From: Methylocystis rosea SV97
GTDB lineage: Bacteria; Pseudomonadota; Alphaproteobacteria; Rhizobiales; Beijerinckiaceae
Direction: 5' to 3'
Assembly (NCBI RefSeq): GCF_000372845.1
Contig: NZ_KB889963.1
Span: 2,383,923-2,447,922, forward strand
DNA: 64,000 bases
The translations under genes were made by a program, and so were the position numbers. Numbering within the stretch: the first letter of the stretch is position 1; each line of letters opens with the position of its first letter. A model generated the notes under the pieces. That model did no database searches. It saw nothing but the letters and a program-made list of their open reading frames with translations, and was not told the origin of the DNA. Shown one piece after another: positions 28,356 to 55,891 of the stretch.

Positions 28356-28369
28356 ACGTTCCGGCCCCT

Positions 28370-30981: not shown

Positions 30982-31229
30982 CAATAGGCAAAAGCGGCGC
31001 AGTCGCCTTTATTGAAGGAGACTGACGAAAATGCAGATCTCGGATTCATGAAATCTCCATCGAAGAGCCGCCGACCTTTTTTGACAGGTCGAGCTAGGGT
31101 TTGATCGCCCTGACGTCGACGTCTCGCAAGATTAACTCAGTGCGCACCGCCTACCGGACGGGGTGGCGCGCCGCTTTGCCCACGACAAACTAGGCGGCGC
31201 GCCATGCGTAAATGCCTGTCGGCCTCGCC

Positions 31230-31990: not shown

Positions 31991-31997
31991 ATGGCTT

Positions 31998-32270: not shown

Positions 32271-32301
32271 GTGTATTTCCTTCGGCGACTTGTGGCGCTT
32301 G

Positions 32302-32998: not shown

Positions 32999-33814
32999 AT
33001 GGAAGCCATCAATGCGGTCTCGCTCAATACATGCTTTGAATCGGATAAATCCATTCGTGGACGCCGTTCGGAAGAGGTCGGCGTAATTGTCTTAAACCGG
33101 CAATTCGTGGCCGCCGAAGATCAATCTCTCGATCACGAAGTGAATGTGTTGCGCGCTAAAGCGCGTTCGGCGCTGCAACTGGCGCAGCGTGAGCGGGATA
33201 TAATCAAGGCGACGAGAGACCGCATCCAGGAAGCCGTCGAACGCGCCAACAATTTTTCTGCTGCGATCCAGAGAAGGCTTTCCAGATTCGCCAATCTTGA
33301 CAAGCGGATCGCTGAAGAGTGCGCGGCATCGATACTTCGTTCGACAGGACAAGAGGCGGGCCGCGCGCTCGAGCTATCGCCGAAAACGAAGAAGCTCGCT
33401 GAAAGGATTTTCTCTCTTAAAAATCAATCGGCCTCGTTTCGACGCGCTTCAGATTGCCTTCGTCAAGAACTCGCGAACGCCGAAAGCAGTCTGAAGTTAG
33501 CCGAGGGCGAAGTTATAAAGGCGGCTGTCGCTGTCGCCGCTGCTGAAATGGAGCCGATCGCGGCTGAACTGGCGCGCGTTGAAAGTCGGGCGGCGACGCT
33601 TCGGCGTCTTCTTCTGGGATACGGCGCTCTCCGCCATGACGGTGGATTTCTGCCGATGAGCAGCGCGACCGCGCAGCTTCTCAGGGCGCCGCCGAAGAAT
33701 GCGATGGTGGGCGGAAGCGTGCATTGCTTCGAGGCCACCGCGCAATGGGCATCCTATTTGCAACAGCTCAGTATCGATAGCGAAGCGACGCTCGATGCGA
33801 AAGTGCGTTGTTGA
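32999..33814 (+). CDS. Coiled-coil protein of unknown function
   Basis: A 271-residue, soluble, strongly helical protein. Residues about 50-110 and 140-200 show heptad-like patterns (LRAKARSALQLAQRERD; LRQELANAESSLKLAEGEV). No signal peptide or known domain is visible. The ATG at 32999 follows GGAGGG at good spacing; an ATG 17 codons upstream lacks one. It lies 150 bases before the lipid synthase on the same strand, but the gap contains repeats that look like a new promoter, so membership in that operon is uncertain. Confidence 0.6.
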   Translation: MEAINAVSLNTCFESDKSIRGRRSEEVGVIVLNRQFVAAEDQSLDHEVNVLRAKARSALQLAQRERDIIKATRDRIQEAVERANNFSAAIQRRLSRFANLDKRIAEECAASILRSTGQEAGRALELSPKTKKLAERIFSLKNQSASFRRASDCLRQELANAESSLKLAEGEVIKAAVAVAAAEMEPIAAELARVESRAATLRRLLLGYGALRHDGGFLPMSSATAQLLRAPPKNAMVGGSVHCFEATAQWASYLQQLSIDSEATLDAKVRC

Positions 33815-33895
33815 GTGTGTTGCAGCACAGATTTTTTCATGCGCAGGCGCGATACAGCGCAAGCGAACAAGCTGACGAAGTGAACATTAAAGCGC

Positions 33896-33918
33896 AAATA
33901 AGCATAGCTGAAATAAGC
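33896..33918 (+). promoter_or_regulatory. Direct repeat upstream of the lipid synthase (possible operator)
   Basis: AAATAAGC occurs twice, at 33896 and 33911 (15-bp period), 47 to 69 bases before the synthase start. Such spaced direct repeats often bind a regulator. No regulator gene lies nearby. Confidence 0.35.
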
Positions 33919-33964
33919 TTTTAGCCGTGTTTTTTGGACACAAGCTGAACTCGAGGAGATATAG

Positions 33965-41416: not shown

Positions 41417-41467
41417 CAGGCGTTCGCCAATTACCGACGCCGAAGTCGACAGATCGAGGAGTAGGCG

Positions 41468-42676
41468 ATGTCGTTTTGCCTGACAAACTTTGTTCCCGTC
41501 CGCATGATCGAGCCTGTGCCGCAGGCTTTGACTCTCGAACTTTCAGCCTATGGATTCGCCAAGTCCTATTGCCGCAGTCACGGGATCACCGATGCGGAGA
41601 GCTTTGGAACGATCATTCACGAAACGCGGCAAAAGTTTGAAAAGTTCGCTCTGTCTCCCTCAGTGATCAAGCGGCGCCAATTGGTGTTCTTTCCGCGTCT
41701 CAGCGACATCAGCTTCAGCAATGGCGAGTTCACGGTCGCAGAGCCCGAACACGAGTATATGCAGCTCTTCGACAACTACGAGAACCTCCAGGCGAAGGAC
41801 ATCAAGACGCGCCATTCGAGCTATGCGAAAGTCGCCGACGGCTGCCTCAAGGAGATGTACGGCGACGCCGAGGAGGCGCCGGACGATCTCATCCATGTGA
41901 CCTGTTCCGGCTATCTGGCGCCCAGTCCCGTGGAGCGGATGGTGGCCGGCAAGGAATGGTTCAACACCACCGTCACGCATAGTTACCACATGGGCTGCTA
42001 CGGCGCGTTTCCGGCGATCAAGATGGCGCACGGCTTTCTCTCGTCGTCGCAATTCGCCATGACCAAGCCCAAGGATCGCGTCGACATCGTGCACACCGAG
42101 GTGCTCTCCGTTCACCGCGGCATCGAAGAGCTCAAGGCCGAGAACATCATCACGATGACGCTGTTTGCCGACGGCTTCATAAAATATTCGATGGTGACGG
42201 AAGATTACCTGCGGGAACGAGGGCTTCGCGGCTTGAGGATCCTCGCCTTCAACGAGCATCTGCTGCCGAACTCGGCCGACGACATGACCTGGGTACCTGG
42301 CTCAACACGCTTCCACATGACGCTCTCCGTCATGGTGCCCGTCGTCATCAAGCAATCGGTTCGCCCATTCGTCGAGCAGTTGCTGCAACGCGTCGGCGTC
42401 GATTTCGAGCATGACAAGCACAGGCTGATTTTCGCCATTCATCCTGGCGGCCCGAAGATCGTCGAACATATTCAGGAGGCGCTCGGGCTTGAGCCGGATC
42501 AGGTGGCGATCAGCAATTCGGTGTTTACCGAGAACGGCAACATGTCCTCGGCGACAGTCCCCCACATCTTGAAGGAAATTTTGGAGGAGCCCTCGATTCC
42601 TGCGGGGGTCCGCATCGTCTCTCTCGCCTTTGGACCGGGTTTGACGATCACCGGCTTGGTGGCGGAAAAGATATGA
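41468..42676 (+). CDS. Type III polyketide synthase (alkylresorcinol/alkylpyrone synthase-like)
   Basis: A 402-residue homodimeric chalcone-synthase-fold enzyme. The catalytic triad is in place: Cys177 in HMGCYGAF, His325 in AIHPGGPK and Asn358 in ENGNMSSAT. The C-terminal GFGPG-like loop reads LAFGPGLTI. Such enzymes take a fatty acyl starter, add malonyl units and cyclise the chain to resorcinols or pyrones. The gene follows the type I synthase by about 50 bases, and its stop overlaps the next start (ATGA). This supports direct acyl hand-over from the synthase ACP, as shown for Azotobacter ArsA/ArsB; that mechanism here is inferred. Confidence 0.93.
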   Translation: MSFCLTNFVPVRMIEPVPQALTLELSAYGFAKSYCRSHGITDAESFGTIIHETRQKFEKFALSPSVIKRRQLVFFPRLSDISFSNGEFTVAEPEHEYMQLFDNYENLQAKDIKTRHSSYAKVADGCLKEMYGDAEEAPDDLIHVTCSGYLAPSPVERMVAGKEWFNTTVTHSYHMGCYGAFPAIKMAHGFLSSSQFAMTKPKDRVDIVHTEVLSVHRGIEELKAENIITMTLFADGFIKYSMVTEDYLRERGLRGLRILAFNEHLLPNSADDMTWVPGSTRFHMTLSVMVPVVIKQSVRPFVEQLLQRVGVDFEHDKHRLIFAIHPGGPKIVEHIQEALGLEPDQVAISNSVFTENGNMSSATVPHILKEILEEPSIPAGVRIVSLAFGPGLTITGLVAEKI

Positions 42677-44553
42677 GCTTCGAGCGCGCTAAGAGAGTCA
42701 ACGGCGGCGACGCTCCATCCTGGCCAGCGACGGGCGAGGGCGGAGCGCCTCTCATCGCGCGCATGTTCGAGGTTCAGGACGCGAAGGAGCTGGCGCTCGC
42801 CGTCGAGCAGCCGGAAGAAGAAGCTCATCTTTCCGAGCGGCCCAGCCCGATGGCAACAGCGGGCGCGGGAAGCTGTGTTCAGATCCAAGAGGCGGATACA
42901 AGCGAACCGCGCATGCCGTTCATCGGTTCCGTGCTCGATTACGTTCCCGGCGAGCGCATCACGATCGAGCGCAAACTCAGCGTTCACGAAGATCTCTACC
43001 TCGCCGATCACGCTTTCGTTCATGCGCCTGGCATAAAGCCGACGTCGGCCTGTCTGCCGGTCGTGCCGATGACGATGAGCCTCGAAATCATGGCCGAGGC
43101 GGCGGCGTGTCTCGCGCCGGGCTGCGGTCTGATCGGATTTGAAGACGTACGCTCGGTGACCTGGATCGATCTGGCGGACGTTGACGAAGTCGCGCTAAAC
43201 ATTGAGACGCAGATCGTTCGTCACGATGCGAAGCGCGGGGCCTTCAGCATTTCCGCCGCCATTTACGTCGAAGGTAAAAGCTCTCCCGCGATCACTGCGA
43301 CTGTTCTTTTCGGAGATCGCTACTTGGTCGAATTGTCGCCGACCTTTAGCGATTTGAGCAACGCGCGCGCTCACTCGCTCACAGCGGATGAAATCTATGC
43401 CGAGCGGCATATGTTTCACGGACCGAGCTTTCAATGTCTCGTTGGAGAGTCCGTTCTCGGAGACGAAGGAATCGTCGGCGAGCTTTGTGTGCGGTCTGCC
43501 GAAGAGCTTTTTGGATCGACGCGTTCTCCGCAACTTTTGACGGACCCCTGCTTACTCGACGCGGTGGGTCAAATCGTCGGCCTCTGGGCGATGGAGCAAG
43601 AGCGCTACGTCTTTCCAATCGGTCTCTTGAAACTTGAAATTTATCGGCCGACGCCGCCGGTCGGAACGCGCGCGCCTGTGCGCGTTGAGATCTTGCAGTC
43701 GGAAGGCAAGACGCTCGTCGCCGATGTCGAGGTGCAGGATGGCGAAGGCGGCGTTTGGATGCGAATCTCAGGCTGGCGGACATGGAAGTTTCGCTGGGAA
43801 AAGCGCCTGGTGGATTTCCGTCGTCAGCCCGACAGACACTTGTTAACGACGCCAGCGCCCGCGCCGCGTTTCGAGGGCGCCGTTTCATTGATGCTTTCAA
43901 GCGCCGAGCTGAAGCAATTCGATCCCGCCTTGCTCGCGCGCTATTGTCTGAGCGCCGACGAAATGCTGACCTTCAAAGAACTGGAACGCTTTCCCCAGCG
44001 CCAGCGGCAGTGGCTCTATGGCCGCGTCGCGGCCAAGGACGCCGTCCGCCTGTGGGTGGCGAAGCGACAGCAAGGGGAGATGTCGCATCCGGCGGCGTTC
44101 GCCATCTCTTCGGATGAACGCGGACGACCGTTCGTCAAGCCCGCGCCGGGCTTGGGATCCGCGCCGTCGGTGAGCATTTCCCATTGCGATGAACGAGCGA
44201 TAGCGGTCGCTCACGAGCATGACATCGGCGTCGATATTGAGCGTATCGCCACGCGCGACGTCGGCGTAGTCGAAGCCTTCGCCTCAGCGAAGGAACGCGA
44301 GATGATCGGTAGTTTTCCGGTCCAAGAACGCGACGCTTGGTTGACCCGGCTGTGGTGCGCGAAGGAAGCGGTCGGCAAGCTCTTGGGCGTCGGTCTTGAG
44401 GGGAAACCGCTTGCGATGGAGGCTGCCGAAATGACCGGTGACGGACAGATCGTCCTTTCGCACAAGGACAGGAACGCGCGCGCGCGCATTTCGACGATTG
44501 AAGATGACGGATTCATTATCGCCTACGCAGACTTGGAGCAGTCAGTCGCGTAA
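42673..44553 (+). CDS. Polyketide dehydratase-phosphopantetheinyl transferase fusion
   Basis: A 626-residue protein. The N-terminal 80 residues are low-complexity. Residues about 85-380 form a double-hotdog PS-DH domain with the catalytic His113 in DHAFVHAPG, the MFHGPSFQ motif, and the acidic partner D296 in LLDAVGQ. Residues about 420-620 are an Sfp-type 4'-phosphopantetheinyl transferase with SISHCDERAIAVA, IGVDIERI and WCAKEAVGKLLG. The fusion would supply both the missing dehydratase and ACP activation for the type I synthase. It overlaps the type III gene by four bases, implying coupling. Confidence 0.9.
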   Translation: MSFERAKRVNGGDAPSWPATGEGGAPLIARMFEVQDAKELALAVEQPEEEAHLSERPSPMATAGAGSCVQIQEADTSEPRMPFIGSVLDYVPGERITIERKLSVHEDLYLADHAFVHAPGIKPTSACLPVVPMTMSLEIMAEAAACLAPGCGLIGFEDVRSVTWIDLADVDEVALNIETQIVRHDAKRGAFSISAAIYVEGKSSPAITATVLFGDRYLVELSPTFSDLSNARAHSLTADEIYAERHMFHGPSFQCLVGESVLGDEGIVGELCVRSAEELFGSTRSPQLLTDPCLLDAVGQIVGLWAMEQERYVFPIGLLKLEIYRPTPPVGTRAPVRVEILQSEGKTLVADVEVQDGEGGVWMRISGWRTWKFRWEKRLVDFRRQPDRHLLTTPAPAPRFEGAVSLMLSSAELKQFDPALLARYCLSADEMLTFKELERFPQRQRQWLYGRVAAKDAVRLWVAKRQQGEMSHPAAFAISSDERGRPFVKPAPGLGSAPSVSISHCDERAIAVAHEHDIGVDIERIATRDVGVVEAFASAKEREMIGSFPVQERDAWLTRLWCAKEAVGKLLGVGLEGKPLAMEAAEMTGDGQIVLSHKDRNARARISTIEDDGFIIAYADLEQSVA

Positions 44554-44590
44554 TCGGAAACCATTTGTCGGCATTCGCCGAGGAGGGATC

Positions 44591-45394
44591 ATGCTGCAGA
44601 CGATGCTTCCCAATGAACAGCGGGTGTACTGTGTGAATCCCTTGGAGGCCCCGATCATTTTTGGACAGATTGCGCCCTACTTCAAACATGGGATCGAAAT
44701 TGAGGAGGGAGACACCATCGTCGACGTCGGCGCGAACATCGGACTCTTTGCCTTGACCGCGTGCGATTGGGGCAAACGGGCCGTAAAAATTCTCGCCTTT
44801 GAGCCAATTCCTGACCTGTTCAAGTGCCTCACGGCCAACGCCAAGAAGTACAAGCTCGATAGCCTCGTCACCTTGCCCTACGCCCTCTCACGAGAGAGCG
44901 GCGCGATCGAATTCACCCACTATCCGCTGCTGACCTCCATGTCGACAGCCTATCCCTATGATTCGAACGCAGCGTCGGTTCGACTTGGCTTTCGAGACAT
45001 ACTGCCTCAGTTCCCGCCATTTCTGCGATGGATACAGCGACTGCCGCCCAAGCCCCAGGAAATTGCTCTGCGCATTCTTCTTAAAATCCTGCTACGCGGC
45101 CGACGCGTTTCGTGTCAGGCGTTGTCGCTCTCAGACGCAATCCGCGATCAAGAACTCACACGCATCGATCTCGTGAAGATCGATGCTGAAATGGCCGAAC
45201 TCGACATCCTGCAAGGCGTCACAGCCGACGACTGGGGAAAGATCAACAAGATCGTCGTCGAAGTGCACGACGTTGAAGGCCGCTTGAACAAGGTGCGGAG
45301 CCTGCTTCAGGCCGCCGGCTTCCGGCGCATCGACGATGAGCAGGATCCGCAGATGAGGGAGTTTCGCGTGCACACCGTTTACGCGACGAAGTGA
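44591..45394 (+). CDS. FkbM family methyltransferase of the lipid locus
   Basis: A 267-residue protein. SAM motif I is IVDVGANIGLFAL (about 40-52), followed by LAFEPIPDLFKCL and the C-terminal LVKIDAEMAELDILQG. The ATG at 44591 follows AGGAGGGATC, a strong site; the frame is open upstream but overlaps the preceding gene. It is a paralog of the gene at 30109-30981. Predicted to O-methylate a sugar or a hydroxyl of the lipid product. Confidence 0.87.
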   Translation: MLQTMLPNEQRVYCVNPLEAPIIFGQIAPYFKHGIEIEEGDTIVDVGANIGLFALTACDWGKRAVKILAFEPIPDLFKCLTANAKKYKLDSLVTLPYALSRESGAIEFTHYPLLTSMSTAYPYDSNAASVRLGFRDILPQFPPFLRWIQRLPPKPQEIALRILLKILLRGRRVSCQALSLSDAIRDQELTRIDLVKIDAEMAELDILQGVTADDWGKINKIVVEVHDVEGRLNKVRSLLQAAGFRRIDDEQDPQMREFRVHTVYATK

Positions 45395-45458
45395 GGAGAA
45401 TGGTGGCGTCGATTTCCGCTCAGGCCTGGTTGGCTGATGCTAATCCGAGGAGCAGAAT

Positions 45459-46673
45459 ATGCTTTACGCGCTGATTATCGCTTTCCTGGGGCTGCAACTG
45501 CTCGTGGTGCTCGCGCCGATGCTACGCTTCGCAAAGTGTTTCCGCCGCGCGCCGTCCTTGCGAACAGAGCAGCCTAAAGCAGCTGTCATCTTGCCGTGTA
45601 AGGGGATAGATGGCGCTCTGGTCGAAACCGTTCGGCGGTTGCTGCGCCAAGACTACAATAACTACGGGCTGCTGTTTGTGACCGAGAGCGAGGAAGATCC
45701 GGCGCATAAGTTGATCAAAGGCCTGATCGAGGGCGCTTCACCTCCGGCGCGATTGATCACTGCTGGCCCCGCCGCGGCCTGCGGACAGAAGGTTCATAAT
45801 CTCGCCACCGCGGTCGACGCTCTCGATGAGTTCTTTCCCGACATTGAGATCATCGCCTTTTGCGATTCTGACGCACAGCCGCAAACGGATTGGCTGACCA
45901 ATCTGGCCGCAGGACTCGCGGACCCTGAAGTGGGCGTCGCCACCGGCTATCGCTGGTATCTTCCGGCCGGCAGCGGCCTCGGGTCTCTGCTGTTGAGCGC
46001 CTGGAACGCGCAATCGCTGTTCTTGTTTGGCGATGAGTCGAGCTTCGCCTGGGGAGGGACTATGGCGATGCGCCGCGTTGATTTCGAAAACTTGGAAATC
46101 CGGCAACGCTGGCGGGGAGGGGTGAGCGACGACGGCAGCGTGACGACCGCGGTTCGTTCGCATGGGCGGCGCATTCAATTCGTGCCCCGCTGTCTGGTCG
46201 CCTCGCGGGGCGACGCGAGCTTGAGTGACGTTCTGGAATTCACGAACCGCCAGATCATCCTGACGCGAGTTTATATGCCACGCGCATGGCGCGAGATCGT
46301 GGCGCTAACGTTGTATTTCTGCGCTCTTTTTGTGCTTGTCGCGTCGCTTCTCTACAGAGCCTTCGCCCAACAAGGTCTGCCCGATGGCGTCGTCAGTCTG
46401 CTGCTGCCGGGCATGGCGTTTGCAATGGTCTTACAGTGCTGGCTGCAGACCACCTTTGCGATGCGCATTCTGCCGCAGCATCGCGACGAGTTGAGACGCC
46501 TTCGATGGGCCTATCTTGGAGTAATGCCTCTGGTGGCGCCTCTGGCGCTCTGGAACGTGATCGTATCGTGCTTCTCTCGACGCATCGTTTGGCGCGGGAT
46601 CGGCTATGAGCTGCTCGGTCCTAATCAGACCGTCATCTGGAAACGCGATCTTCCCGATCCGCGCGCGATTTAG
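45459..46673 (+). CDS. GT21/ceramide-glucosyltransferase-like membrane glycosyltransferase
   Basis: A 404-residue protein with an N-terminal transmembrane helix, a GT2/GT21 catalytic domain and two to three C-terminal helices. Motifs are ILPCKG, the D1/D2 acidic pair with CDSDAQ (about 134), GGTMAMRR, VSDDGSVT (D3, about 222) and the RQxxxTRVY segment taking the place of the (Q/R)xxRW motif. This order is that of ceramide glucosyltransferase and bacterial HpnI-type enzymes that act on lipid acceptors at the membrane. In this context the acceptor may be the phenolic lipid made by the upstream enzymes; that is inference. Confidence 0.85.
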   Translation: MLYALIIAFLGLQLLVVLAPMLRFAKCFRRAPSLRTEQPKAAVILPCKGIDGALVETVRRLLRQDYNNYGLLFVTESEEDPAHKLIKGLIEGASPPARLITAGPAAACGQKVHNLATAVDALDEFFPDIEIIAFCDSDAQPQTDWLTNLAAGLADPEVGVATGYRWYLPAGSGLGSLLLSAWNAQSLFLFGDESSFAWGGTMAMRRVDFENLEIRQRWRGGVSDDGSVTTAVRSHGRRIQFVPRCLVASRGDASLSDVLEFTNRQIILTRVYMPRAWREIVALTLYFCALFVLVASLLYRAFAQQGLPDGVVSLLLPGMAFAMVLQCWLQTTFAMRILPQHRDELRRLRWAYLGVMPLVAPLALWNVIVSCFSRRIVWRGIGYELLGPNQTVIWKRDLPDPRAI

Positions 46674-46699
46674 GGCGGCTGCGTTGTATCAAAGGAATC

Positions 46700-46861
46700 A
46701 TGATGTCCGGCCTGCAGAGCAAGCGTACTGATGTTTTCGTTCTCCGGAGCGTTGTGTGGCGGCGTCATCCGATAAGACGATGCGCGTTTAGCGGAAATTC
46801 GCTGGAATCGTGGGAACGGTTTTGGACGAATGTTGTTACTCCTCTAGCGGAGGGACTGTGA
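46700..46861 (+). CDS. Small ORF translationally coupled to the next gene (candidate)
   Basis: A 53-codon frame begins ATGATG after AAAGGAATC and ends TGA overlapping the next ATG (TGATG). It is basic and not hydrophobic (start MMSGLQSKRTD, end TPLAEGL). No homology recognised. The ribosome binding site and stop-start overlap argue for translation; composition gives no support. It may be a leader peptide. Confidence 0.3.
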   Translation: MMSGLQSKRTDVFVLRSVVWRRHPIRRCAFSGNSLESWERFWTNVVTPLAEGL

Positions 46862-47385
46862 TGTATTTCCTTCCTGATCAAGATCTAAAAATCGAATGGG
46901 TTCGCAAGGACGAAAGTTGTCCGCACGAGGGCCATTCCTGGTACGGAAGTCGATACTGCTACTTCGAGATCGATCGTAGCGAGTGCGACTCGGCGATAGA
47001 CGTTTGCCCTGTCTACGTTCTCTATTCAATGACCGGCGAAACGCTGATCAACGAGCTTGCACGGCGCAAGGCGTCTGAACTGAGAGTGGCGCCGGCAACC
47101 GACGCCGTCAGTGAAATCGAGCGCTTGACGAGCGGCGAAGTCAGACATCGCTCGGACGAGATGCAGTTTATCGGACGCTTCATCATGCGCTCGATCGAGG
47201 ACGCCTGGGACGATCGTACGAATGACCAAGCTATGTCGACATGGACAAGATTGGCGTCAATGGCGCCATCGTGGAGATTCGGCTTCAGGCGAAGAAAGAT
47301 CCAAGTCAATCGTGACGCCATACGGCTGACGAAGGACGCCGCTGAAGTCTTAGAGACCAGAGAAGCGGCGAGCCGGCTGCGGTAG
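46861..47385 (+). CDS. Unknown protein within the lipid locus
   Basis: A 174-residue soluble protein with a Cys/Tyr-rich N-terminal half (ESCPHEGHSWYGSRYCYFEI, then a CDSAIDVCPVY segment) and a helical basic C-terminal half. Four cysteines in the first 60 residues could bind a metal. No known family is recognised. The ATG at 46861 follows GGAGGG. It sits between the glycosyltransferase and the exporter genes on the same strand, so it may serve the pathway. Confidence 0.6.
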   Translation: MYFLPDQDLKIEWVRKDESCPHEGHSWYGSRYCYFEIDRSECDSAIDVCPVYVLYSMTGETLINELARRKASELRVAPATDAVSEIERLTSGEVRHRSDEMQFIGRFIMRSIEDAWDDRTNDQAMSTWTRLASMAPSWRFGFRRRKIQVNRDAIRLTKDAAEVLETREAASRLR

Positions 47386-47524
47386 GTTCATTGAGGCGCT
47401 AGGACGCAGTCCGTCGGCTGCGTCATCCGATGTTGCGAGCGGAGAGAATATGGCGCCTGGCGCTGCGCGCAGTCACCGGCAAGGTGCGCTTGAAGAACTA
47501 GAATAGCTGCGGGAGCCTTTCGAA

Positions 47525-48733
47525 ATGTCGCTAGGAAAAGAAATTGGCCTCGCCACGAGACAATTTGGCGGACGCAGCGGCGTTGCATGGATGCGTCCGA
47601 GTCTGACGCTTCTCATCGCTTGGCGAAACCTCGTCCACGATCGTGTCCGTTTCGCTGTGACGATCGTCGGAATCGCCTTCTCGACAATCCTCGTCGGCAT
47701 TCAGTTGGGCATGCTCCTTAATTTTCTTCACACGACGTCGACCGTCGTGGACCATGCCGGCGCGGATCTTTGGGTCGCCGCGCATGGCGTTCCCAGCGTC
47801 GATCTTGCAACGCCGATCGACGGCAGACGCAGATTCCAGTCGCTGGCGGTGGAAGGCGTCGCCGTCGCCGAGCCTTATCTTCTGCATTTCGGCTTTTGGA
47901 AGCGCGCCGACGGGATACGGCAGATTGTCATCCTCATTGGCGTCGAACCGGGCGCCGAGATGGGCTTGCCGCTGACTTTGCCCGCCGGGCAAAGCTTCCG
48001 AGAGGCGCTATCCAGCCCCGATGGGATTATCATCGATCGACTCTACGCCGAAAAGCTTGGTGTCACCGGACTCAATCAACTTGTTGAAATTAATGATCGC
48101 CGGGCGCGGGTCGTCGGCTTTACGGACGGGATAAGAACATTCACGCAATCGCCCTATGTCTTTACCTCGCTACGTAACGCGCGATCGCTGCTGGGTCGAA
48201 CAGACAATCTCATCACTTACGTGTTGATCCGGCTCGCCCCCGGTCAGGATCCGGCTACGGTGATCGAGAGACTGTCCGCCCGAATGCCAGACGTCGACGT
48301 AATGACCTCGCGGGAATTTGCGGCCAATAGCCAGAAATACTGGCTTCTGACCACGGGTGCGGGCATTTCGATCATCTGCTCTTCGCTGCTTGCGCTTTTT
48401 GTTGGCGTCGTGATCGTCGCACAAACGCTCTACGCTAGCACCATGGATCGTCTTCCCGAATACGCAGTCATTCGTGCTATGGGCGGGCCGCGATGGTATC
48501 TCTACAAGATCGTCATTGAACAGGCGGTGATCGGTGGTCTGATCGGAAGCGTCGTCGGGATCGGCGCCGTGGCGGTGCTTGTGTATCTCGGCCGGAACAT
48601 GAGTTCGCCGCCGCTTTTCCCAGCTTGGCTTGCTGTTGGCATCGGCGCCGTCACCGTGCTGATGTGCGTCGGCGCCTCGCTGGTGTCGATCAGCAAGATC
48701 ACATCAATTGATCCAGTGAAGGTGTTCAGATGA
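47525..48733 (+). CDS. ABC exporter permease (DevC-like, FtsX/MacB-type)
   Basis: A 402-residue inner-membrane permease. Four transmembrane helices: one at about 40-65, and three clustered at about 285-310, 335-360 and 370-392. The large periplasmic domain between helix 1 and 2 contains DLWVAAHGVPS and LGVTGLNQLVEI. The EYAVIRAMGGPR coupling segment and the C-terminal DPVKVFR are characteristic of DevC/FtsX-like permeases. Its stop overlaps the ATPase start by four bases. In Anabaena, DevBCA exports heterocyst glycolipids; a similar lipid cargo is proposed here. Confidence 0.9.
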   Translation: MSLGKEIGLATRQFGGRSGVAWMRPSLTLLIAWRNLVHDRVRFAVTIVGIAFSTILVGIQLGMLLNFLHTTSTVVDHAGADLWVAAHGVPSVDLATPIDGRRRFQSLAVEGVAVAEPYLLHFGFWKRADGIRQIVILIGVEPGAEMGLPLTLPAGQSFREALSSPDGIIIDRLYAEKLGVTGLNQLVEINDRRARVVGFTDGIRTFTQSPYVFTSLRNARSLLGRTDNLITYVLIRLAPGQDPATVIERLSARMPDVDVMTSREFAANSQKYWLLTTGAGISIICSSLLALFVGVVIVAQTLYASTMDRLPEYAVIRAMGGPRWYLYKIVIEQAVIGGLIGSVVGIGAVAVLVYLGRNMSSPPLFPAWLAVGIGAVTVLMCVGASLVSISKITSIDPVKVFR

Positions 48734-49458
48734 AACGCGCCGTCATCAGCGCCTCTGGCGTCAGTCATTCCTTCGACACCGGACCGACGCCGGTCACCGT
48801 GCTTCGGGACATCGACGTTGAGGTTTACGCCGGCGAGTTGCTGATGCTTGTGGGACCGTCGGGCAGCGGTAAGACGACGCTGCTCCATATTCTGGGTCGG
48901 CTGCTCAGCCCTTCGAGCGGAGTGGTGATGCTTTATGGAAAAAACACGCAGGCGCTCGGCGAAGAGGAGCTCGCAGCGCTGCGGCTGAAATATTTTGGCT
49001 TCATTTTTCAAGCCTACAATCTGTTCCCCGTGCTGACCGCCACGGAAAACGTGATGGTGATGCTCGATCTTCTCGGAGTGTCCCGGCAGATTGCTCGGGA
49101 GCGCGCGCGCGAACTCCTGAAATCGGTGGGCTTAGGTCAGCGGCTCGATTCCTTTCCCTCTCAATTGAGTAGCGGCCAGAGACAGCGCGTCGCGATCGCG
49201 CGCGCTCTGGCCGGCGATCCCAAGATCCTGATGGCCGACGAACCGACTGCCGCGCTGGACGCAGAAAGCGGACTTCGCGCCATTGAGCTTTTGCAGATGC
49301 TTGCGCATCAGCAGGAGCGAGCGGTGGTCATCGTCACCCATGATCCGCGCATTCTTCAATTCGGGGATCGGGTGATACATCTCGAAGATGGACAAATCGC
49401 CGAGCGTTTGGCGACGCCGCGTGGTCCATCTCCCCTACACGCAATGGGAGCCTTGTGA
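48730..49458 (+). CDS. ABC exporter ATPase (DevA-like)
   Basis: A 242-residue ATP-binding subunit. Walker A GPSGSGKTT (about 42-50), Q-loop FQAYNLFP, signature LSSGQRQR (about 145), Walker B ILMADEPTAALD (about 167) and H-loop VTHDPRIL. Sequence type is the LolD/MacB/DevA group, which powers extrusion rather than import. It is coupled to the permease by an ATGA overlap and to the fusion protein by TGATG. Confidence 0.94.
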   Translation: MKRAVISASGVSHSFDTGPTPVTVLRDIDVEVYAGELLMLVGPSGSGKTTLLHILGRLLSPSSGVVMLYGKNTQALGEEELAALRLKYFGFIFQAYNLFPVLTATENVMVMLDLLGVSRQIARERARELLKSVGLGQRLDSFPSQLSSGQRQRVAIARALAGDPKILMADEPTAALDAESGLRAIELLQMLAHQQERAVVIVTHDPRILQFGDRVIHLEDGQIAERLATPRGPSPLHAMGAL

Positions 49459-50576
49459 TGAAAATGTCGTCACGCGTCGTCGCAATTCTGACTTTCCTCG
49501 GCCTGGCTGCGCTGGGCCTCTTTCTCTTTCAGTCGATCGAGAGCACGCAGTCAACCGCTCGCGCCACAACGTCGCTCGCCAGTCTTGCGCAGCATGTCGC
49601 CGCCGCGCCGGGAATGGTGGAGCCTGAAGGCGAGGAGCGAGAAATCTCCGCGCAAGCGACAGGCGTCATCCGCGAGATGCGGGTCGAGGAGAACGATGAG
49701 GTGGCGGCCGGTCAGATCATCGCGGCGCTCGATAATACCGAGCAGGTCGCTCGACTGGAGTCCGCGCGCGCCGCGCTTGCGCTGCGGCAGGCCGAACTTG
49801 AGCGCCTCACCAATGGCGCGCGCGCCGAGGAGCGCCGAGAGGCGAAGGATGCTCTGATGGAGGCAGACGCAGCGCTCGATTTGGCGCGACGCGAACATGA
49901 GCGACGGCTGCCGCTCACTAAGAGCGGCGTTTCGCCCCAAGCGGCGCTTGATCAGGCCACGTCCCACTGGAACGTCAACAAGGCGCGGCGCGCGGCGATC
50001 GCGGAAAGGCTCGCGATGCTCGAGGCTCCGCCGCGCGCGGAAGATCTCGCGGCGGCGCGCGCGCGGGTGCGGCTCGCGGAGGCGGATGTGGCTCTGTCGG
50101 AAGCGCTTTTGGAAAAGACGCTGGTGCGGTCGCCGATCGCGGGTACGATCCTGCGTCGCTCTCGCGTCGCCGGCGAAGCCGTGACGCACGTGCCGCCGAC
50201 GCCGATCGCCATCGTCGGCAATGTTCGCGGTCTGCGCGTGCGCGCGGACGTCGATGAGACCGACGTCGGAAAAATCGTCGCCGGGCAGCGCGTCGAGGTC
50301 ACTGCGGACGCGTTCCCAAATCAGAAATTCGGCGGACGAGTTTTCCGCGTGTCGTCCAGAATGGGCTCCAAGATGGTTCAGACCGGTCGGCCGACCGATC
50401 GCGTCGACGCCAAGGCGCTGCAGGTGCTTATAGATCTCGACCCCGGCGTGAAATTGCCCGTCGGGCTGCGCGTTGACGCTTATTTTTTGGTCCACCCGCT
50501 CTCGGCGCAGACAGGTTGGCTCCAACCAATGAAGGCGCAAAAATCCGCGGGGCGATTCGCCATAGCGCGCGACTGA
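49458..50576 (+). CDS. Membrane fusion protein (HlyD family, DevB-like)
   Basis: A 372-residue periplasmic adaptor. An N-terminal transmembrane anchor (VVAILTFLGLAALGLFLF), a lipoyl half with MVEPEGEEREISAQATG, an alpha-helical hairpin at about 95-215 (coiled coil with many Ala/Glu/Arg), then the second lipoyl half VRSPIAGTILRR and beta-barrel (VRADVDETDVGKIVAGQRVEV, given in part). This matches DevB adaptors that link an ABC permease to a TolC-type channel. The ATG at 49458 overlaps the ATPase stop. Confidence 0.92.
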   Translation: MKMSSRVVAILTFLGLAALGLFLFQSIESTQSTARATTSLASLAQHVAAAPGMVEPEGEEREISAQATGVIREMRVEENDEVAAGQIIAALDNTEQVARLESARAALALRQAELERLTNGARAEERREAKDALMEADAALDLARREHERRLPLTKSGVSPQAALDQATSHWNVNKARRAAIAERLAMLEAPPRAEDLAAARARVRLAEADVALSEALLEKTLVRSPIAGTILRRSRVAGEAVTHVPPTPIAIVGNVRGLRVRADVDETDVGKIVAGQRVEVTADAFPNQKFGGRVFRVSSRMGSKMVQTGRPTDRVDAKALQVLIDLDPGVKLPVGLRVDAYFLVHPLSAQTGWLQPMKAQKSAGRFAIARD

Positions 50577-50677
50577 CGGAGCGCGAGGAGTCGCGCGAAT
50601 TGATTGGCTAATTCTAGATAACGCCCAGGCGGGCGCCGGAATTATCCTAACAGGGCTATCAGAAGGAGAGCGCCAAA

Positions 50678-51400
50678 ATGGCTAAGCTCGCTCGCGCAGT
50701 ATATCCTGAACTTTTGGATTCTCTTCCATGCGACGATCCCCGAGCAATGCAGTCGCGCCGCGACCTGCAGCGCGTCAACAGCTGGATGTTGCAGACCAAG
50801 ATTATGGCGACGATGCTTTCCCGCCATTTCGACAGGACGCCGAAAACTATTCTCGATCTCGGCTCCGGCGACGGTGCATTGATGCTCGGCGTCGCAAATC
50901 GCCTGGCGCCGAAGTGGCAAGGCGTGACGGTGCGCCTGCTCGACCAACAGGACATTCTATCGGACGAGACGCGCCAAGCCTTTGAAGCGATCGGATGGCG
51001 GGTGGAGAGCGTCGTCGCAGACGTCTTCGATTACCTTTCGCATGACGCCGCGACGACGGACATCATCTCAGCAAATCTGTTTCTGCATCATTTTGAAAAC
51101 CCCGACCTCGCCCGCTTGCTTGAATTGGCGGCGGCGCGCACGACGCTGTTCGTAGCATGCGAACCCCGTCGCGATCGCTTTTCGCTCATGGCGAGCAGCC
51201 TGGTCTGGGTCATCGGCTGCAACGACATCACGCAATGGGATGCGAAGACGAGCGTGCGCGCCGGCTTCAACAACCGCGATCTATCGAAGCTGTGGCCAGA
51301 TCAGGATGACTGGGTTCTCGACGAGAGCCCCGCAAGGCCATTTACGCACTGCTTCGCGGCGCGGCAGTCGAATTCCGCCCCAGGCGACACGCCTTCGTAA
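50678..51400 (+). CDS. SAM-dependent methyltransferase of the lipid locus
   Basis: A 240-residue class I methyltransferase. Motif I is ILDLGSGDGALML (about 66-78), motif II RLLDQQD, and an LFLHHFENPD block (about 140-149). It starts after an AAGGAG site. It is paired with the following FAD oxidoreductase; methyltransferase plus flavoprotein pairs also accompany type III PKS genes elsewhere, for example SrsB and SrsC with SrsA in Streptomyces. A likely role is methylation of the resorcinol or pyrone ring; this is inferred. Confidence 0.84.
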   Translation: MAKLARAVYPELLDSLPCDDPRAMQSRRDLQRVNSWMLQTKIMATMLSRHFDRTPKTILDLGSGDGALMLGVANRLAPKWQGVTVRLLDQQDILSDETRQAFEAIGWRVESVVADVFDYLSHDAATTDIISANLFLHHFENPDLARLLELAAARTTLFVACEPRRDRFSLMASSLVWVIGCNDITQWDAKTSVRAGFNNRDLSKLWPDQDDWVLDESPARPFTHCFAARQSNSAPGDTPS

Positions 51401-51519
51401 GCCGTCGCTCTCGCGAGCGGCTGGCTTGGGCCCATCGACGCAACAATCGCTTCAACAGACGGTGAGGAGCCCCCAAAGGACAAACCGGTCACTCCGGAAT
51501 TGCTTCGCGAAGAGGTAGA

Positions 51520-52671
51520 ATGAGGAGTCGTATCGTGACGGAAGCAAGCGTGATCATCGGCGGCGGCGTCGCTGGAGCTACGGCGGCCCTTGCTTTATCC
51601 CGCGCGGGTCGGCGCGTCGATCTCTATGAGCGCTCGTCGTCGGCCAGTCATAAGATTTGCGGCGAGTTCATGAGCCGTGAGGTCAGCGCGAATTTGCGAT
51701 CTCTTGGCGTAGACCCGGTGGATCTGGGCGCTCGACCGATCAACCGTGTGCGATTGGTTCGGGGAAATCGCAGCGTGGACCAACCGCTGCCTTTTCCGGC
51801 TCTGGCGCTATCGAGAAAAATCCTCGACGAGGCTCTCCTCGAACATGCGACGTCCTGCGGCGTGAACGTCATTCGCGGCAAGGCGGCGCGACGCATCGAG
51901 CAATCGGATGACGGCGGCTTCGAAGTGTCCTTCGGCTCCGGAGATAGCGCGCCGGCTCGCGCGATTTTTCTTGCGAGTGGCAAGCACGATTTGCGTGGCG
52001 TCAAGCGCGCTGCGCCTGGGCGCCAAAGCGATTATCTTGCTTTGAAAATGTATTACCGTTTCAACAAGAAAAAGACTGAGCATCTGCGGTGGGTGACGGA
52101 GCTCATTCTCCTCAAGGAATGCTATCTCGGGCTAATGCTTGTCGAAGACGATCGCGTCAATTTGTGTTTCGTGATCAGCGAAGACCGCTTCGCCGAAGGA
52201 GGGGGAACCTGGCAAGGTGTTCTGCAGCAATTCAGCAGCGAGTCGGGCTACGTAGCGGCTTACTTGGAGGGCGCCGTGCCTTTGCTGGATCGCCCGCTTG
52301 CGATCAGCCGCATTCCTTATGGTTTTGTACACAATCCGTCCCCTGCGGACCCGCCGGGCCTGTGGCGGCTTGGAGATCAGATTGCGGTGATCCCTTCTTT
52401 CACCGGCGACGGGATGGGCATGGCGAGCTGCAGCGCAGTTCTGGCGGCCAACATGTTTCTCGAAGGCGCGACCTCGCATGAGTTTCATGACCGCTTCAGT
52501 AAGATCGTTAGAAAGCAAATGCGCGTTTCAAAGCCGTTGAACAGCATGTTCTTCAGACATTCGGTTGGCCAGGACGCCCTTATATGGCTCGCCTCGCAGT
52601 TTCCTAGCGGCGTCCGCGCGATCGCGCGCGCGACGCGCGTTCCCGAACAGGCGATGCCGCGTATCGACTAA
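51520..52671 (+). CDS. FAD-dependent oxidoreductase (geranylgeranyl-reductase/hydroxylase-like)
   Basis: A 383-residue flavoprotein. The dinucleotide-binding motif VIIGGGVAGATAAL (about 10-23), the E at the end of strand 2 (VDLYERS), a KICGEFMS block typical of the geranylgeranyl-reductase-like group, and the FAD-closing motif IPSFTGDGMGMASCSA near residue 290. It lies last in the co-directional lipid locus, after the methyltransferase. Candidate roles are ring hydroxylation to a quinone lipid, or reduction of a double bond; the sequence does not decide. Confidence 0.85.
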   Translation: MRSRIVTEASVIIGGGVAGATAALALSRAGRRVDLYERSSSASHKICGEFMSREVSANLRSLGVDPVDLGARPINRVRLVRGNRSVDQPLPFPALALSRKILDEALLEHATSCGVNVIRGKAARRIEQSDDGGFEVSFGSGDSAPARAIFLASGKHDLRGVKRAAPGRQSDYLALKMYYRFNKKKTEHLRWVTELILLKECYLGLMLVEDDRVNLCFVISEDRFAEGGGTWQGVLQQFSSESGYVAAYLEGAVPLLDRPLAISRIPYGFVHNPSPADPPGLWRLGDQIAVIPSFTGDGMGMASCSAVLAANMFLEGATSHEFHDRFSKIVRKQMRVSKPLNSMFFRHSVGQDALIWLASQFPSGVRAIARATRVPEQAMPRID

Positions 52672-53027
52672 GTCCATATTCCCACCGAGCCACGTTTATG
52701 GCTGCTAAAAAGACACAAGCCTCTTCTCCAAATCAACCGACCAGACTCGCCGCGCATCATGCGGTTGAAGGTCGGCCATTAACGGCGTTTACAGATCAAG
52801 TATCAACTTGTACAAATAAACGCATGAGCCAAGAAGCGCCCGATGCGATGGTCTCGGGCTAGGCGCGTCATTTCAACAACGGAACTCTCGAACGCTACTG
52901 CGGTCTGCCCCAGCGAGATGAATGTGAGATGGCCCAACGATAACGTTTTCGGCGCGGCGCTTGACTGACCCGACTTTTTCCCTGGTCTCCCTTGAATCGA
53001 CAGCTTGTTTCAGCAAGGAGATCGATA
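52672..53027. other. Intergenic region after the lipid locus
   Basis: 356 bases without a supported gene. A 54-codon frame at 52699-52863 has no ribosome binding site and no recognisable product. Confidence 0.45.
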
Positions 53028-53681
53028 ATGATACTCTTGAGCCGGATTTTCGATCAGGAAACCCAGATGAACTCGAGCCGCTCGATACGACAGACGCGGT
53101 TCATGGTTCTTCTGCTGTCTGTTGTGATCTTCTCAGGCGTGCAGGACGCCCAGGCTCAGTCCCTCAAACGCGATCTGCGGGGCTTTTCGCTCGGCATGTC
53201 CAAGGATGAAGCGGCGAGACTCGCGCGGTCGCAATGCAACAACTTCGGAAAGGTCTCGTTTCATGGCGGCATGCGCGCCGAGGAGTTCTTCGCATCGTCA
53301 TCTGAATATGGGAAACAGTTCTCCTGCAGATTTGAGGACGGCTCCATCGTCAACTATGCGCTCACCCCGCGGACCGGCAAGGTCTACAGGCTGAACGGCG
53401 TGTTCCTGTCACCGATGACCTGTCCGGAGCTTCTCGATTTCATCATCGAAGAATTCAAAGTGAGCGAAAAATATTCCAAATACCATCCAAAGCCCAAAGC
53501 CGAGCGCGACTGCCAGGGATGGGCGTGGCAATCCGGGCCGAGCTACGATTTGAAAGTCTGGCTCAACGAGCCCGACGCCACGCGATTCAACGTGAGCTTG
53601 ATGGACAGCGAAGTTGTCCGGCAGAATGAGGCCTCGGCCGAGGATCCCGAAAAACAGTCGGGCGTCAAACCTCGCTTGTAG
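53028..53681 (+). CDS. Exported protein of unknown function
   Basis: A 217-residue protein. The ATG at 53028 follows AAGGAGATCG at good spacing; the signal peptide core is FMVLLLSVVIFSGVQDAQA, so MNSSRSIRQ at 53067 is an alternative start. The mature part starts LRGFSLGMSKDEAARLA, a layout seen in exported proteins that recognise small ligands, and has three or four cysteines probably forming disulfides. No family assigned. It is convergent with the TolC-like gene. Confidence 0.62.
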   Translation: MILLSRIFDQETQMNSSRSIRQTRFMVLLLSVVIFSGVQDAQAQSLKRDLRGFSLGMSKDEAARLARSQCNNFGKVSFHGGMRAEEFFASSSEYGKQFSCRFEDGSIVNYALTPRTGKVYRLNGVFLSPMTCPELLDFIIEEFKVSEKYSKYHPKPKAERDCQGWAWQSGPSYDLKVWLNEPDATRFNVSLMDSEVVRQNEASAEDPEKQSGVKPRL

Positions 53682-53720
53682 GTTCAGGCGTTGCTCGTCG
53701 CGGCGCCGCGCCGCGCATGT

Positions 53721-55130
53721 TCATCGATCAGGCGTATCGGTTCCGTACCATTTGTATTTGACCTGCTCGAAATGAACGACAGGGTCGTAGCGCACGACAT
53801 TGAGATTGAGCGTCTCGGCCGTCAGTCTGCCGATCGCGGCTAAAATCGCGTATGAGGCAACGACACGGTCCCTTTGGGAAATGACCAGATTGGCGCGCGC
53901 ATTGAGCAAAGTCTGCTGAGCGTTCAACACGTCGAGCGTCGTGCGCTGCCCCACCTGCGCCTCGTCCCGAACGCCTTTGAGAGCGAGTTCGGCCGCCTTC
54001 ACCGTCGCCTGATCCGATCTGATCTGCGATCTGGCCGTGTCCAGCAGACCATAGCTCGAGACAACGTTAGCACGAACGCGGTCGCGCTGTGCGTCGGCGT
54101 TGAGGCGCGCCTTGCCGAGCACCTCTTTCGCCTTACGGATCGAGGAATACTCCCCTCCTCCCTGGTAGAGGGGGACATTGAGCGCGCCGTTGACGCCCGC
54201 CGAAAATTGCCGCGAGCCGGGCAGTCCAAGGAAAGAGTCATACTGCTGGGATACTTGCGCATTGACCGACAGCGTGGGCAAAAGCGCGCCCTCGGCGACT
54301 TTCACCGCCGACTCCGCGGTGTCCACCCGATGTAAGGCCGCGACGATGGCGGGATGTTCGACAAGCGCGACGTCAATCGCATCCCTCACTGATTTGGGCA
54401 ACATCCGCTCAACCGATGGGGCCGGCTCGAGACGTTTCGGCTCCACACCGATTATCTGCCGGTAAACGGCGGCGCTGCTTTTCAGTTGCGCCTCGGCGGC
54501 AAAATATTCTGAGCGCGCATGGGAGACGGAGGCTTCGCTTTGCGACACGTCGGTATTCGTCACGTCACCGGATTGATAGCGCTTCTGCGTATCGTGCAAC
54601 TGTAGATCGAGCACGGCGATGTTGCTCTTGCGCAGCGATAGGATCGCCGCGTCGCGCATCACGTCCATGAAAGCGGTCGCGCCGCTGCGCAATATCTCCT
54701 GCTCAGAAAGCCGCATCAGGGCGCGCGACTCGAATACGCTCGACTCGGCGCGGCGCACCGAATTCTCCGTGCGACCGCCATCAAAGACATTTTGCGAGAC
54801 GTTCAGCGTGGCCCCACGCGGATATCCCGTATATTCATCAGTAAGCGGGATGCGCTGATTGATCACCGGCAGTCGCACTGGAATCCTGAGGTTCGAGCGC
54901 TGCGCGCCGACGCTTGCCTGAATATTGGCGTTGGGACGCAGTCCGGACCAGGCGCTCGAGACGTCTTCGTCACGCGCACGCACGTCGGCGCGTTGCTCGT
55001 TTAGGTCCGGGTTACCCGCATAAGCCCGAGCGAGCGCAGAGGAAATTGTTTCGGCTGAGACATCGCTTGCGCTTGCCAACGCGAGGCCTGCCCCTGCCGC
55101 TACGACTGTAAGCGCGCCGAACGATTTCAT
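53721..55130 (-). CDS. TolC family outer-membrane efflux protein
   Basis: A 469-residue outer-membrane channel. The signal peptide (MKSFGALTVVAAGAGLALASASDVSAETI, given in parts: it ends DVSAE) leads into the TolC repeat: SSALARAYAGNPDLNEQRADV at the start of repeat 1 and DAIDVALVEHPAIVAALH at repeat 2, each followed by long coiled-coil helices and beta strands (GATLNVSQNVFDGG; ALNVPLYQGGGEYS). It is the type I secretion/TolC class. The nearby DevCAB-like pump lacks its own channel, so this may be the partner, as HgdD is in Anabaena; it is transcribed from the opposite strand. Confidence 0.93.
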   Translation of the reverse strand: MKSFGALTVVAAGAGLALASASDVSAETISSALARAYAGNPDLNEQRADVRARDEDVSSAWSGLRPNANIQASVGAQRSNLRIPVRLPVINQRIPLTDEYTGYPRGATLNVSQNVFDGGRTENSVRRAESSVFESRALMRLSEQEILRSGATAFMDVMRDAAILSLRKSNIAVLDLQLHDTQKRYQSGDVTNTDVSQSEASVSHARSEYFAAEAQLKSSAAVYRQIIGVEPKRLEPAPSVERMLPKSVRDAIDVALVEHPAIVAALHRVDTAESAVKVAEGALLPTLSVNAQVSQQYDSFLGLPGSRQFSAGVNGALNVPLYQGGGEYSSIRKAKEVLGKARLNADAQRDRVRANVVSSYGLLDTARSQIRSDQATVKAAELALKGVRDEAQVGQRTTLDVLNAQQTLLNARANLVISQRDRVVASYAILAAIGRLTAETLNLNVVRYDPVVHFEQVKYKWYGTDTPDR

Positions 55131-55891
55131 GGAATCCCACTCTCTCGCTCCAGCGCGAAGCGTACCGCTCAACGCCGGAATGAGCCTTCCAGGCTCTTAC
55201 GCCGCTTTGAAAATTGGGAGCGAATGCGTGGGCGCAGCAGATCTGATCCCGTTCACTCGTCACAATCATGATATCTTTGCGTATAGCGGTAATTGTAACA
55301 GCAGCAACGCATCACAGGAAGATGAGTAACGTTGATCAGTCGACATTTATTGTTGACGTGGCAAAAATGACACAGCGCTTGCTCCGGACTTGAGCTCCTT
55401 TTCATAAAAAACTGATTTGGTTAATTTCAAAAGGGGTTTAATGACAAAATTTATTGGAGAGAATTATTTGGGCGGCGATGCCTATTCTTTGAGCAGCGAC
55501 CCCAATCCGACGCAAAGCCTCCGCAAGCAGATCGGCGCCGAGCATCTTGCCGGTTCGCGGTTCACGGCTAGACGCCCGATTATTGAACGGGGATGGCGTC
55601 GGGGGCGTTGCGGCGGGGCTTGCCGGGCGCGGCAGCGCGCTCGACCGAGCCGGCCGAGAGGCAATCGATCTAGTCAGATAGCTAGGCTCTTGGCGGTCGC
55701 GTGTCAGTGTCCGGGGAGGCGATACGCGTCGCTCGCGCAGTTTGCTTGAGCGGCCGATGGACGAAAAAATGTCGGACGGAAAGGCACGAATGGAGGATCA
55801 CCGCTCGAGAGAAATATGTTTGCTTTCCCAGATTGCGGGCCGCGCTAGTTACCGACTCATTCTAACTTCTCTCAATTTAAAGGAGTTTGTT
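55131..55891. other. Long intergenic region with a possible broken small gene
   Basis: 760 bases. The first 300 are A/T-rich and hold the TolC-like promoter. An ATG at 55441 after AAAGGGG opens a frame (MTKFIGENYLGGDAYSLSS) that becomes Arg-rich after about 45 codons. In another frame, 55568-55681 reads LLNGDGVGGVAAGLAG and ends REAIDLVR. Together they look like one small gene split by a frameshift, but neither part is recognised. Confidence 0.35.

Follow-up and report, generated by a model that had tools for sequence, protein, structure and literature searches.

A DevBCA-like pump and a linked TolC gene as candidate alkylresorcinol exporter in an ars-type locus of Methylocystis rosea

Background

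How does a phenolic lipid made at the inner membrane of a bacterium reach the cell surface? We addressed this question for a locus in a 64,000-nucleotide stretch of the genome of Methylocystis rosea SV97 (contig NZ_KB889963.1, positions 2,383,923 to 2,447,922), the whole of which is called the window below. It carries genes resembling the alkylresorcinol (ars) genes of Azotobacter vinelandii, followed by devC-, devA- and devB-like genes for an ABC pump (DevCAB) and, on the other strand, by a gene for a TolC-family outer-membrane channel.

Several other genera with ars loci form cysts; we found no open-licence paper on cyst formation in these genera. In A. vinelandii, alkylresorcinol lipids are described as entering the cyst membrane and the exine (PMC4824345). 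Within the open-licence papers, the exit of alkylresorcinols from the inner membrane of cyst-formers seems not to have been described. The words transport and export are absent from the text of PMC4824345 and PMC12358690, and none of the four uses of 'transporter' in PMC4314083 concerns alkylresorcinol lipids. In the same literature we found no paper combining Methylocystis with alkylresorcinol or type III polyketide and, judging by titles and the beginnings of abstracts, none on a bacterial pump that combined type III polyketide with DevC. Cyanobacterial type III polyketide synthase (PKS) clusters are reported to encode transporters of the RND, MFS and ABC types (PMC8086630), so that finding a transporter next to a type III PKS has precedents. 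ArsB and ArsC are placed in one group with some of these cyanobacterial enzymes in the same paper, in which DevA and HlyD are not named (term counts of zero).

In this work we describe the gene content and order of the locus, its insertion, its recurrence in other genomes and the trees of its proteins. Based on these comparisons, we consider it rather probable that this region forms the export part of an ars locus of the Azotobacter type, in which DevCAB and the linked TolC would form a dedicated alkylresorcinol exporter.

Results and discussion

The pump genes and the TolC gene

The original prediction held that the DevC-, DevA- and DevB-like genes overlap each other, follow the lipid genes and lie 3 kb from a TolC-family gene on the other strand, and we could confirm each of these features. 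The three pump open reading frames (ORFs) span 47525-50576, and at both the devC/devA and the devA/devB junctions the two genes share 4 bases, the stop of one overlapping the start of the other. They are preceded, in this order, by genes for a PKS, a type III PKS (T3PKS), a dehydratase/phosphopantetheinyl transferase (DH/PPTase), an FkbM protein, a GT2 glycosyltransferase and a 191-amino-acid (aa) protein of unknown family (Table 1). The distance between the devB and tolC stops is 3.1 kb. The tolC ORF (53721-55172, minus strand) opens with a TTG, and a signal-peptide-like stretch starts at the internal ATG at 55,130. Its product matches PF02321 (E 3.4e-54) and, with 294.7 bits, exceeds the cut-off of 225.15 of the NCBIfam family TIGR01844, which makes it a TolC family member. 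As three genes in the 3.9-Mb genome pass this cut-off, a TolC gene would lie this near devB by chance in about 0.5% of placements, a figure that rises to about 2% if all 13 outer-membrane-factor genes are counted.

The best NCBIfam model for the permease is DevC TIGR01185 (148.7 bits, cut-off 290.35; next family 31.4), and the best for the ATPase is DevA TIGR02982 (245.5 bits, cut-off 295.8), ahead of MacB (216.9) and LolD (209.5). All three Dev-model scores, that of the adaptor included, lie below the curated cut-offs and thus outside strict DevC, DevA and DevB membership. The genes belong to a wider DevBCA-like group, with a separate MacB-type permease, an ATPase and an HlyD adaptor, the permease and ATPase being nearest to the Dev and not to the Lol models. 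A phmmer search of DevC against the PDB gave weak matches at most (best E 0.03). The MacB_PCD/FtsX architecture would also suit a MacAB-like efflux pump for drugs or peptides whose genes simply travel along with those for the lipid; the top NCBIfam match of the adaptor is a general HlyD protein, and some Anabaena DevBCA paralogues are reported to act in drug resistance (PMC8277102). Against such a pump speak the lower MacB scores and the constant company of the lipid core described below, and we hold it to be very improbable.

Lipid, pump and TolC genes in one insertion

In the related genome G023, about 726 bp separate guaA (97% identical) from the genes that the window has from 55.8 kb on; positions 27801-55821 are missing. 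This insertion of about 28 kb holds the lipid genes, the pump and TolC together. The same flanking genes lie 2.9 kb apart in G036 and enclose 12.4 kb of other DNA in G017, with no match to the island by DNA or by protein in either. We had sampled 12 stretches from 10 genomes at guaA, of which three span both flanks, and in all three the lipid genes, the pump and TolC are absent. The other nine show at most one flank and carry little weight; in these, too, TolC, pump and PKS gave no match at E <= 1e-6. No match to the island DevC or T3PKS was found elsewhere in the genome of G023. In G018 and G016 the island is present with the same right-flank genes, in G018 also with guaA on the left. Since the island is absent as a block from relatives with both flanks, TolC sits within the insertion together with the lipid genes. 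The original prediction would have regarded the channel as unrelated if relatives without the lipid locus had a TolC gene at this site; none of the three (G023, G036 and G017) has one.

The G+C content of the island (0.55-0.66) contrasts weakly with that of the left (0.64-0.68) and right (0.59-0.68) flanks, and the island proteins are 92-100% identical to proteins of Methylocystis contigs. The ICMT gene at 56168 was rejected as a locus member; it is a native gene, present at the empty site. The left part of the island (28310-33814) carries an impB/mucB-like fragment, a methyltransferase, an FkbM protein and a weak sulfotransferase-like piece, and encodes a 288-aa protein that is kept before the PKS in G020 (36% identity).

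Table 1. Features of the island and of the ars-type locus, in window coordinates
Feature	Positions	Strand	Basis
Insertion missing from G023, guaA side to native ICMT side (edges by blastn)	27801..55821		blastn and protein comparison
ArsA-like type I PKS/fatty acid synthase, FabK/NMO-KS-AT-ACP-KR, 2483 aa	33965..41416	+	Pfam; 54% identity to A. vinelandii ArsA-position gene (L084)
ArsB-like type III PKS, C177/H325/N358 triad, W275 aligned with ArsB Trp281	41468..42676	+	Pfam, PDB match, alignment
ArsD-like dehydratase + 4'-phosphopantetheinyl transferase fusion	42673..44553	+	PS-DH + ACPS (Pfam); 47% identity to A. vinelandii gene
FkbM methyltransferase (tailoring), open frame from 44438, likely start ATG 44591	44591..45394	+	Pfam
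GT2 glycosyltransferase (tailoring)	45459..46673	+	Pfam
191-aa protein, unknown family, same place before devC in G020 (40%)	46810..47385	+	Sequence comparison
DevC-like permease, MacB_PCD + FtsX, 402 aa	47525..48733	+	Pfam, NCBIfam, tree
DevA-like ATPase, ABC_tran, 242 aa, Walker A + LSSGQ present	48730..49458	+	Pfam, NCBIfam, trees
DevB-like periplasmic adaptor, HlyD/barrel-sandwich, 373 aa, start GTG 49455 or ATG 49458	49455..50576	+	Pfam, NCBIfam
SAM methyltransferase (tailoring)	50678..51400	+	Pfam
FAD-dependent oxidoreductase, geranylgeranyl-reductase-like, below cut-off	51520..52671	+	Pfam, NCBIfam
ars-linked TolC-family outer-membrane channel, ATG start, open frame from TTG 55172	53721..55130	-	Pfam, NCBIfam, trees

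Recurrence in alphaproteobacteria

The order PKS-T3PKS-PPTase-(0 to 3 genes)-DevC-DevA-DevB on a single strand was found in five alphaproteobacterial lineages: the window clade, G020, Beijerinckia mobilis, a plasmid of B. indica and a plasmid of Methylosinus sp. C49. Loci L069, L070, L071 and L077 correspond to genomes G015, G016, G028 and G005 and were counted once as lineages. The order in G020 is w32948-PKS-T3PKS-DH/PPTase-w46810-DevC-DevA-DevB (w, window gene), with 69, 65 and 59% identity for DevC, DevA and DevB; its TolC (58%) lies on the opposite side of the locus and is divergent. On pMSC49a of Methylosinus sp. C49, PKS-T3PKS-PPTase-DevC-DevA-DevB is followed at 25 bp by a convergent TolC gene (57%). 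Plasmid pBIND02 of B. indica has PKS-T3PKS-T3PKS-PPTase-GT4-DevC-DevA-DevB, and B. mobilis has the same gene order. A linked TolC thus occurs in three lineages in three arrangements, convergent at 3.1 kb in the window, divergent in G020 and convergent at 25 bp in Methylosinus.

The window genes for FkbM, GT2, the SAM methyltransferase and the geranylgeranyl-reductase-like protein had no match at E <= 1e-4 in the stretches of the other four lineages. As these tailoring genes are missing there while the pump stays, the pump tracks the core lipid; its retention beside this core, even in versions of the locus lacking the window tailoring genes, is a further argument against mere drug efflux. Among 61 genomes searched, all seven with a DevC of at least 69% identity also have an ars-type T3PKS. 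G025 has an ars-type T3PKS at 54% identity without this DevC; this locus (L096) was not counted as an ars locus, the ArsB-like protein being found without a PKS or pump match. In a survey of 397 evenly drawn genomes of the order, an ArsB-like protein at E <= 1e-60 was found in one, the window's own; other carriers of the same genus are not among the genomes listed of that sample.

Two further observations concern these loci. In G005, DevC and TolC are present in two copies on different contigs (C31 and C34), and the TolC match on C34 contains one TGA. Just past TolC on pMSC49a (L174, 24541-39452) lies another cluster, which encodes an AMP-binding and a Rieske protein and has a type I PKS gene of 11 kb.

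Dev-like genes were also seen in other surroundings. G006 (L046, 9864-14005) has a DevC-DevA pair that is preceded, at 1.1-1.2 kb, by a different type III PKS (25-31%), with an FAD enzyme in the gap; G033 (L044) and G034 (L054) gave similar matches. These represent, within the same genus, another kind of locus that unites a type III PKS with Dev-like genes. Plasmid pDVUL01 of Nitratidesulfovibrio vulgaris (L175, 12004-14922) carries DevC-DevA-DevB-like genes (45, 53 and 36%) close to nif genes, and the annotation of the 25-kb stretch shows no PKS.

Trees and the question of the partner channel

The six DevC sequences from ars loci form one clade (support 97/100), apart from four cyanobacterial DevC, other DevC-like sequences and the Azotobacter-type permease. 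The ars-linked TolCs group together at 99/97 with one unlinked copy, from G006, and the window genome's TolC at 2.61 Mb falls outside this group, in a separate clade (98/98). Four far paralogues were left out of the TolC trees, and G015_ARS, G016_ARS and G009_722k also out of the second one; G000_23k had no match, and the G009 TolC at 3.04 Mb (L192) was not used.

Several points weigh against a dedicated exporter. The adaptor scores higher with PRK03598 (128.8 bits) than with DevB TIGR02971 (103.6; cut-off 129), and an AlphaFold2 model of DevB, built from 4 sequences, was too poor to use (mean pLDDT 52). The clade of DevA sequences from ars loci is weaker (91/95) than that of DevC. Nor do the five lineages stand for five independent gains, since they are related and a single clade holds all their DevC. 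Being on the opposite strand, tolC is outside the pump operon. No TolC match was found in 41 kb of pBIND02 or in the 21-kb locus of B. mobilis; the two B. mobilis TolCs that exceed the TIGR01844 cut-off are on contigs differing in size from the ars contig. Near the G006 TolC (4.11 Mb), no match to any of the 20 other pump and lipid queries was found in 20 kb. A strict clade of the linked TolCs alone is not the best tree, nor is it rejected (p-AU 0.06 and 0.16), and the three linked types are long branches.

Some of these points would fit a TolC that is a passenger of the island, serving something else while DevBCA uses another cellular TolC such as the 2.61-Mb copy: the strand of tolC, the two Beijerinckia loci and the unlinked clade member in G006. 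Anabaena HgdD, moreover, is reported to pair with at least seven DevBCA paralogues (PMC8277102). We nevertheless consider a passenger unlikely in view of the linkage in three lineages with three arrangements, the grouping of the linked copies apart from the clade of the 2.61-Mb copy, and the absence of TolC from the site in relatives without the lipid locus. The conservation of TolC with the locus, on which the original prediction was to be checked, holds in the window clade, G020 and Methylosinus; in the stretches of the two Beijerinckia no linked TolC was found. The likeness that it had proposed to DevBCA-HgdD, with a phenolic lipid as substrate, is supported with reservations: pump and lipid core occur together in five lineages and TolC in three, but the pump forms a clade apart and scores below the NCBIfam cut-offs.

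Lipid genes and predicted product

The window contains the ArsA-ArsB-ArsD core of an ars locus in this order. The A. vinelandii locus (L084) runs PKS-T3PKS-T3PKS-DH/PPTase (54, 64, 61 and 47% identity to the window proteins), in agreement with the roles described for arsABCD (PMC4824345). The nearest PDB chains to the window type III PKS are 3vs9 and 3vs8, given as ArsC G284W and ArsC, respectively (PMC6274091). Its W275 aligns with Trp at the A. vinelandii ArsB position and with Gly at the ArsC position, and it has both the Cys-His-Asn triad and the tryptophan corresponding to Trp281 of a resorcinol-type synthase. The W281G change in ArsB is reported to abolish alkylresorcinol synthesis and to confer alkylpyrone synthesis (PMC6274091). 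From the ArsB-like W275 and the homology to ars, the window enzyme is predicted to make alkylresorcinols.

At the site of ArsB Trp281, the Burkholderia/Paraburkholderia type III PKSs of L088-L091 have Glu and the second type III PKS of B. mobilis has Leu; cyclisation may differ in these enzymes. A tRNA-Asp called by ARAGORN at 39907-40005 falls within the PKS gene, and we regard it as probably spurious.

Another transport module in beta- and gammaproteobacterial ars loci

A scan of genome contigs, with three aligned type III PKSs as the query, left 80 of 113 loci, including Methylocystis, B. mobilis, three Azotobacter species, Methylobacter, Methylocaldum, Massilia and Paraburkholderia. PKS, T3PKS and DH/PPTase are all present in 29 of the 80: 24 are of the Lol type, four are of the Dev type (two Methylocystis, a Methylocystaceae metagenome-assembled genome and B. 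mobilis), and one (L071) stops short of the transporter. This count does not include the remaining 51, among which L097, L100 and L120 have weaker Lol-like matches beside the T3PKS, and L111 has DevA/DevB-like matches (28-32%) about 7-9 kb away. The Lol-type loci come from families such as Pseudomonadaceae, Methylococcaceae, Oxalobacteraceae and Burkholderiaceae, which are beta- and gammaproteobacteria. All 24 beta- and gammaproteobacterial ars loci that reach the transporter have LolD- and LolE-like genes after the PPTase gene, and 23 also have a LolA-like gene, L087 ending first. In the window, DevCAB occupies the place after arsD that LolD-LolE(-LolA-like) take in these loci. An outer-membrane-protein-like gene and a GT4 gene were often seen in the module directly after arsD (L084, 14422-20278, and 23 further loci).

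The A. vinelandii ATPase scores 246.7 with LolD and 199.4 with DevA, LolCE is the best model for the permease, and none of these scores reaches its cut-off; the third transport gene belongs to PF17131 (LolA_like). We regard this Lol-like module as a candidate alkylresorcinol transport system of A. vinelandii. The ABC ATPase Avin_29510, which from the order of genes and locus tags would be the gene after arsD (L084, 14422-15174), is given as 0 for an algU mutant in a table that also lists ArsA, ArsB and ArsC; the paper links the loss of Ars in this mutant to encystment (PMC10651043).

In the type III PKS tree as drawn (midpoint root, some open forks), the alphaproteobacterial sequences lie inside the beta- and gammaproteobacterial ones, and the ATPase tree separates Dev from LolD. 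This suggests that biosynthesis is common and that the transport module has likely been exchanged between lineages. With about an even chance, ars loci have a dedicated exporter slot that is filled in two ways differing in mechanism, by a LolDE/LolA-like chaperone route to the outer membrane in beta- and gammaproteobacteria, Azotobacter included, and by a DevBCA-like conduit with its own TolC to the cell surface in methanotroph-related alphaproteobacteria. If so, the module swap would decide the fate of the phenolic lipid, kept in the outer membrane or laid down as an external coat.

Proposed route of the lipid

From the genes we infer what is made, in which direction it is moved, and that DevB pairs with the island TolC. 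A long acyl chain would be built on the acyl carrier protein by the ArsA- and ArsD-like proteins and converted to an alkylresorcinol by the ArsB-like type III PKS. The lipid, made at the inner membrane, would reach the periplasmic leaflet, where DevC-DevA, an ATP-driven permease of the MacB type working in the MacB-like mode, may capture it and hand it to the DevB adaptor, from which the TolC channel would lead it to the cell surface. The Methylocystis-like window clade, Methylosinus and G020 would use a dedicated TolC copy, and Beijerinckia a TolC from elsewhere.

As the pump is kept without the window tailoring genes, its substrate would be the core lipid, perhaps glycosylated, since glycosyltransferases of differing families recur. 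A variant in which the exported form is glycosylated or methylated instead of the bare alkylresorcinol is possible but somewhat doubtful. A glycosyltransferase gene is near the locus in all five lineages: GT2 in the window, GT28/UDPGT-like after devB in G020, GT4 in both Beijerinckia and GT4 upstream on the other strand in Methylosinus. The families differ, however, and FkbM, the methyltransferase and the geranylgeranyl-reductase-like protein were not found outside the window clade among the alphaproteobacterial loci.

The locus provides a named candidate for an alkylresorcinol exporter in alphaproteobacteria, and the comparison adds a second one in the genetically tractable A. vinelandii. If confirmed, lipid export by DevBCA-like pumps would extend beyond cyanobacteria.

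Comparison with known systems

With MacAB-TolC the window system shares the tripartite layout and the MacB_PCD/FtsX domains. MacB is one fused chain, with an NCBIfam model of 648 positions, whereas the window permease and ATPase are separate proteins. LolCDE, which acts at the periplasmic leaflet, broadly resembles the window system in the type of its ABC permease and ATPase; unlike these, the window DevC and DevA score highest with the DevC/DevA models, and LolA_like had no Pfam match among the locus proteins scanned. The likeness to A. vinelandii arsABCD lies in the ArsA-, ArsB- and ArsD-like core in the same order. The window lacks the second T3PKS (ArsC, alkylpyrone), and instead of the LolD-LolE-LolA-like genes, outer-membrane-protein-like gene and GT4 of A. 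vinelandii it has DevCAB and TolC.

The fourth system is DevBCA-HgdD of Anabaena sp. PCC 7120, with a separate MacB-type permease and ATPase, an HlyD-type adaptor and a TolC-type channel, as in the window. The heterocyst glycolipid is PKS-made; the window lipid is ars-type, unlike the substrate of DevBCA-HgdD. The gene order is C-A-B in the window and B-C-A in all four cyanobacterial plasmid copies, to which (these not being the Anabaena PCC 7120 proteins) the window has 27-30% (DevC), 41-46% (DevA) and 24-30% (DevB) identity. In the trees the window pump lies outside the cyanobacterial DevC/DevA clade and, given this, its gene order and the cut-offs, was not filed as DevBCA. Anabaena DevB is described as having no membrane-proximal domain (PMC8277102). 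HgdD is reported to be encoded elsewhere and common to many pumps, whereas the ars TolC is linked in three lineages. DevBCA-HgdD serves the envelope lipid of a differentiated cell (PMC8277102, PMC6161253), and the window pump probably works like it.

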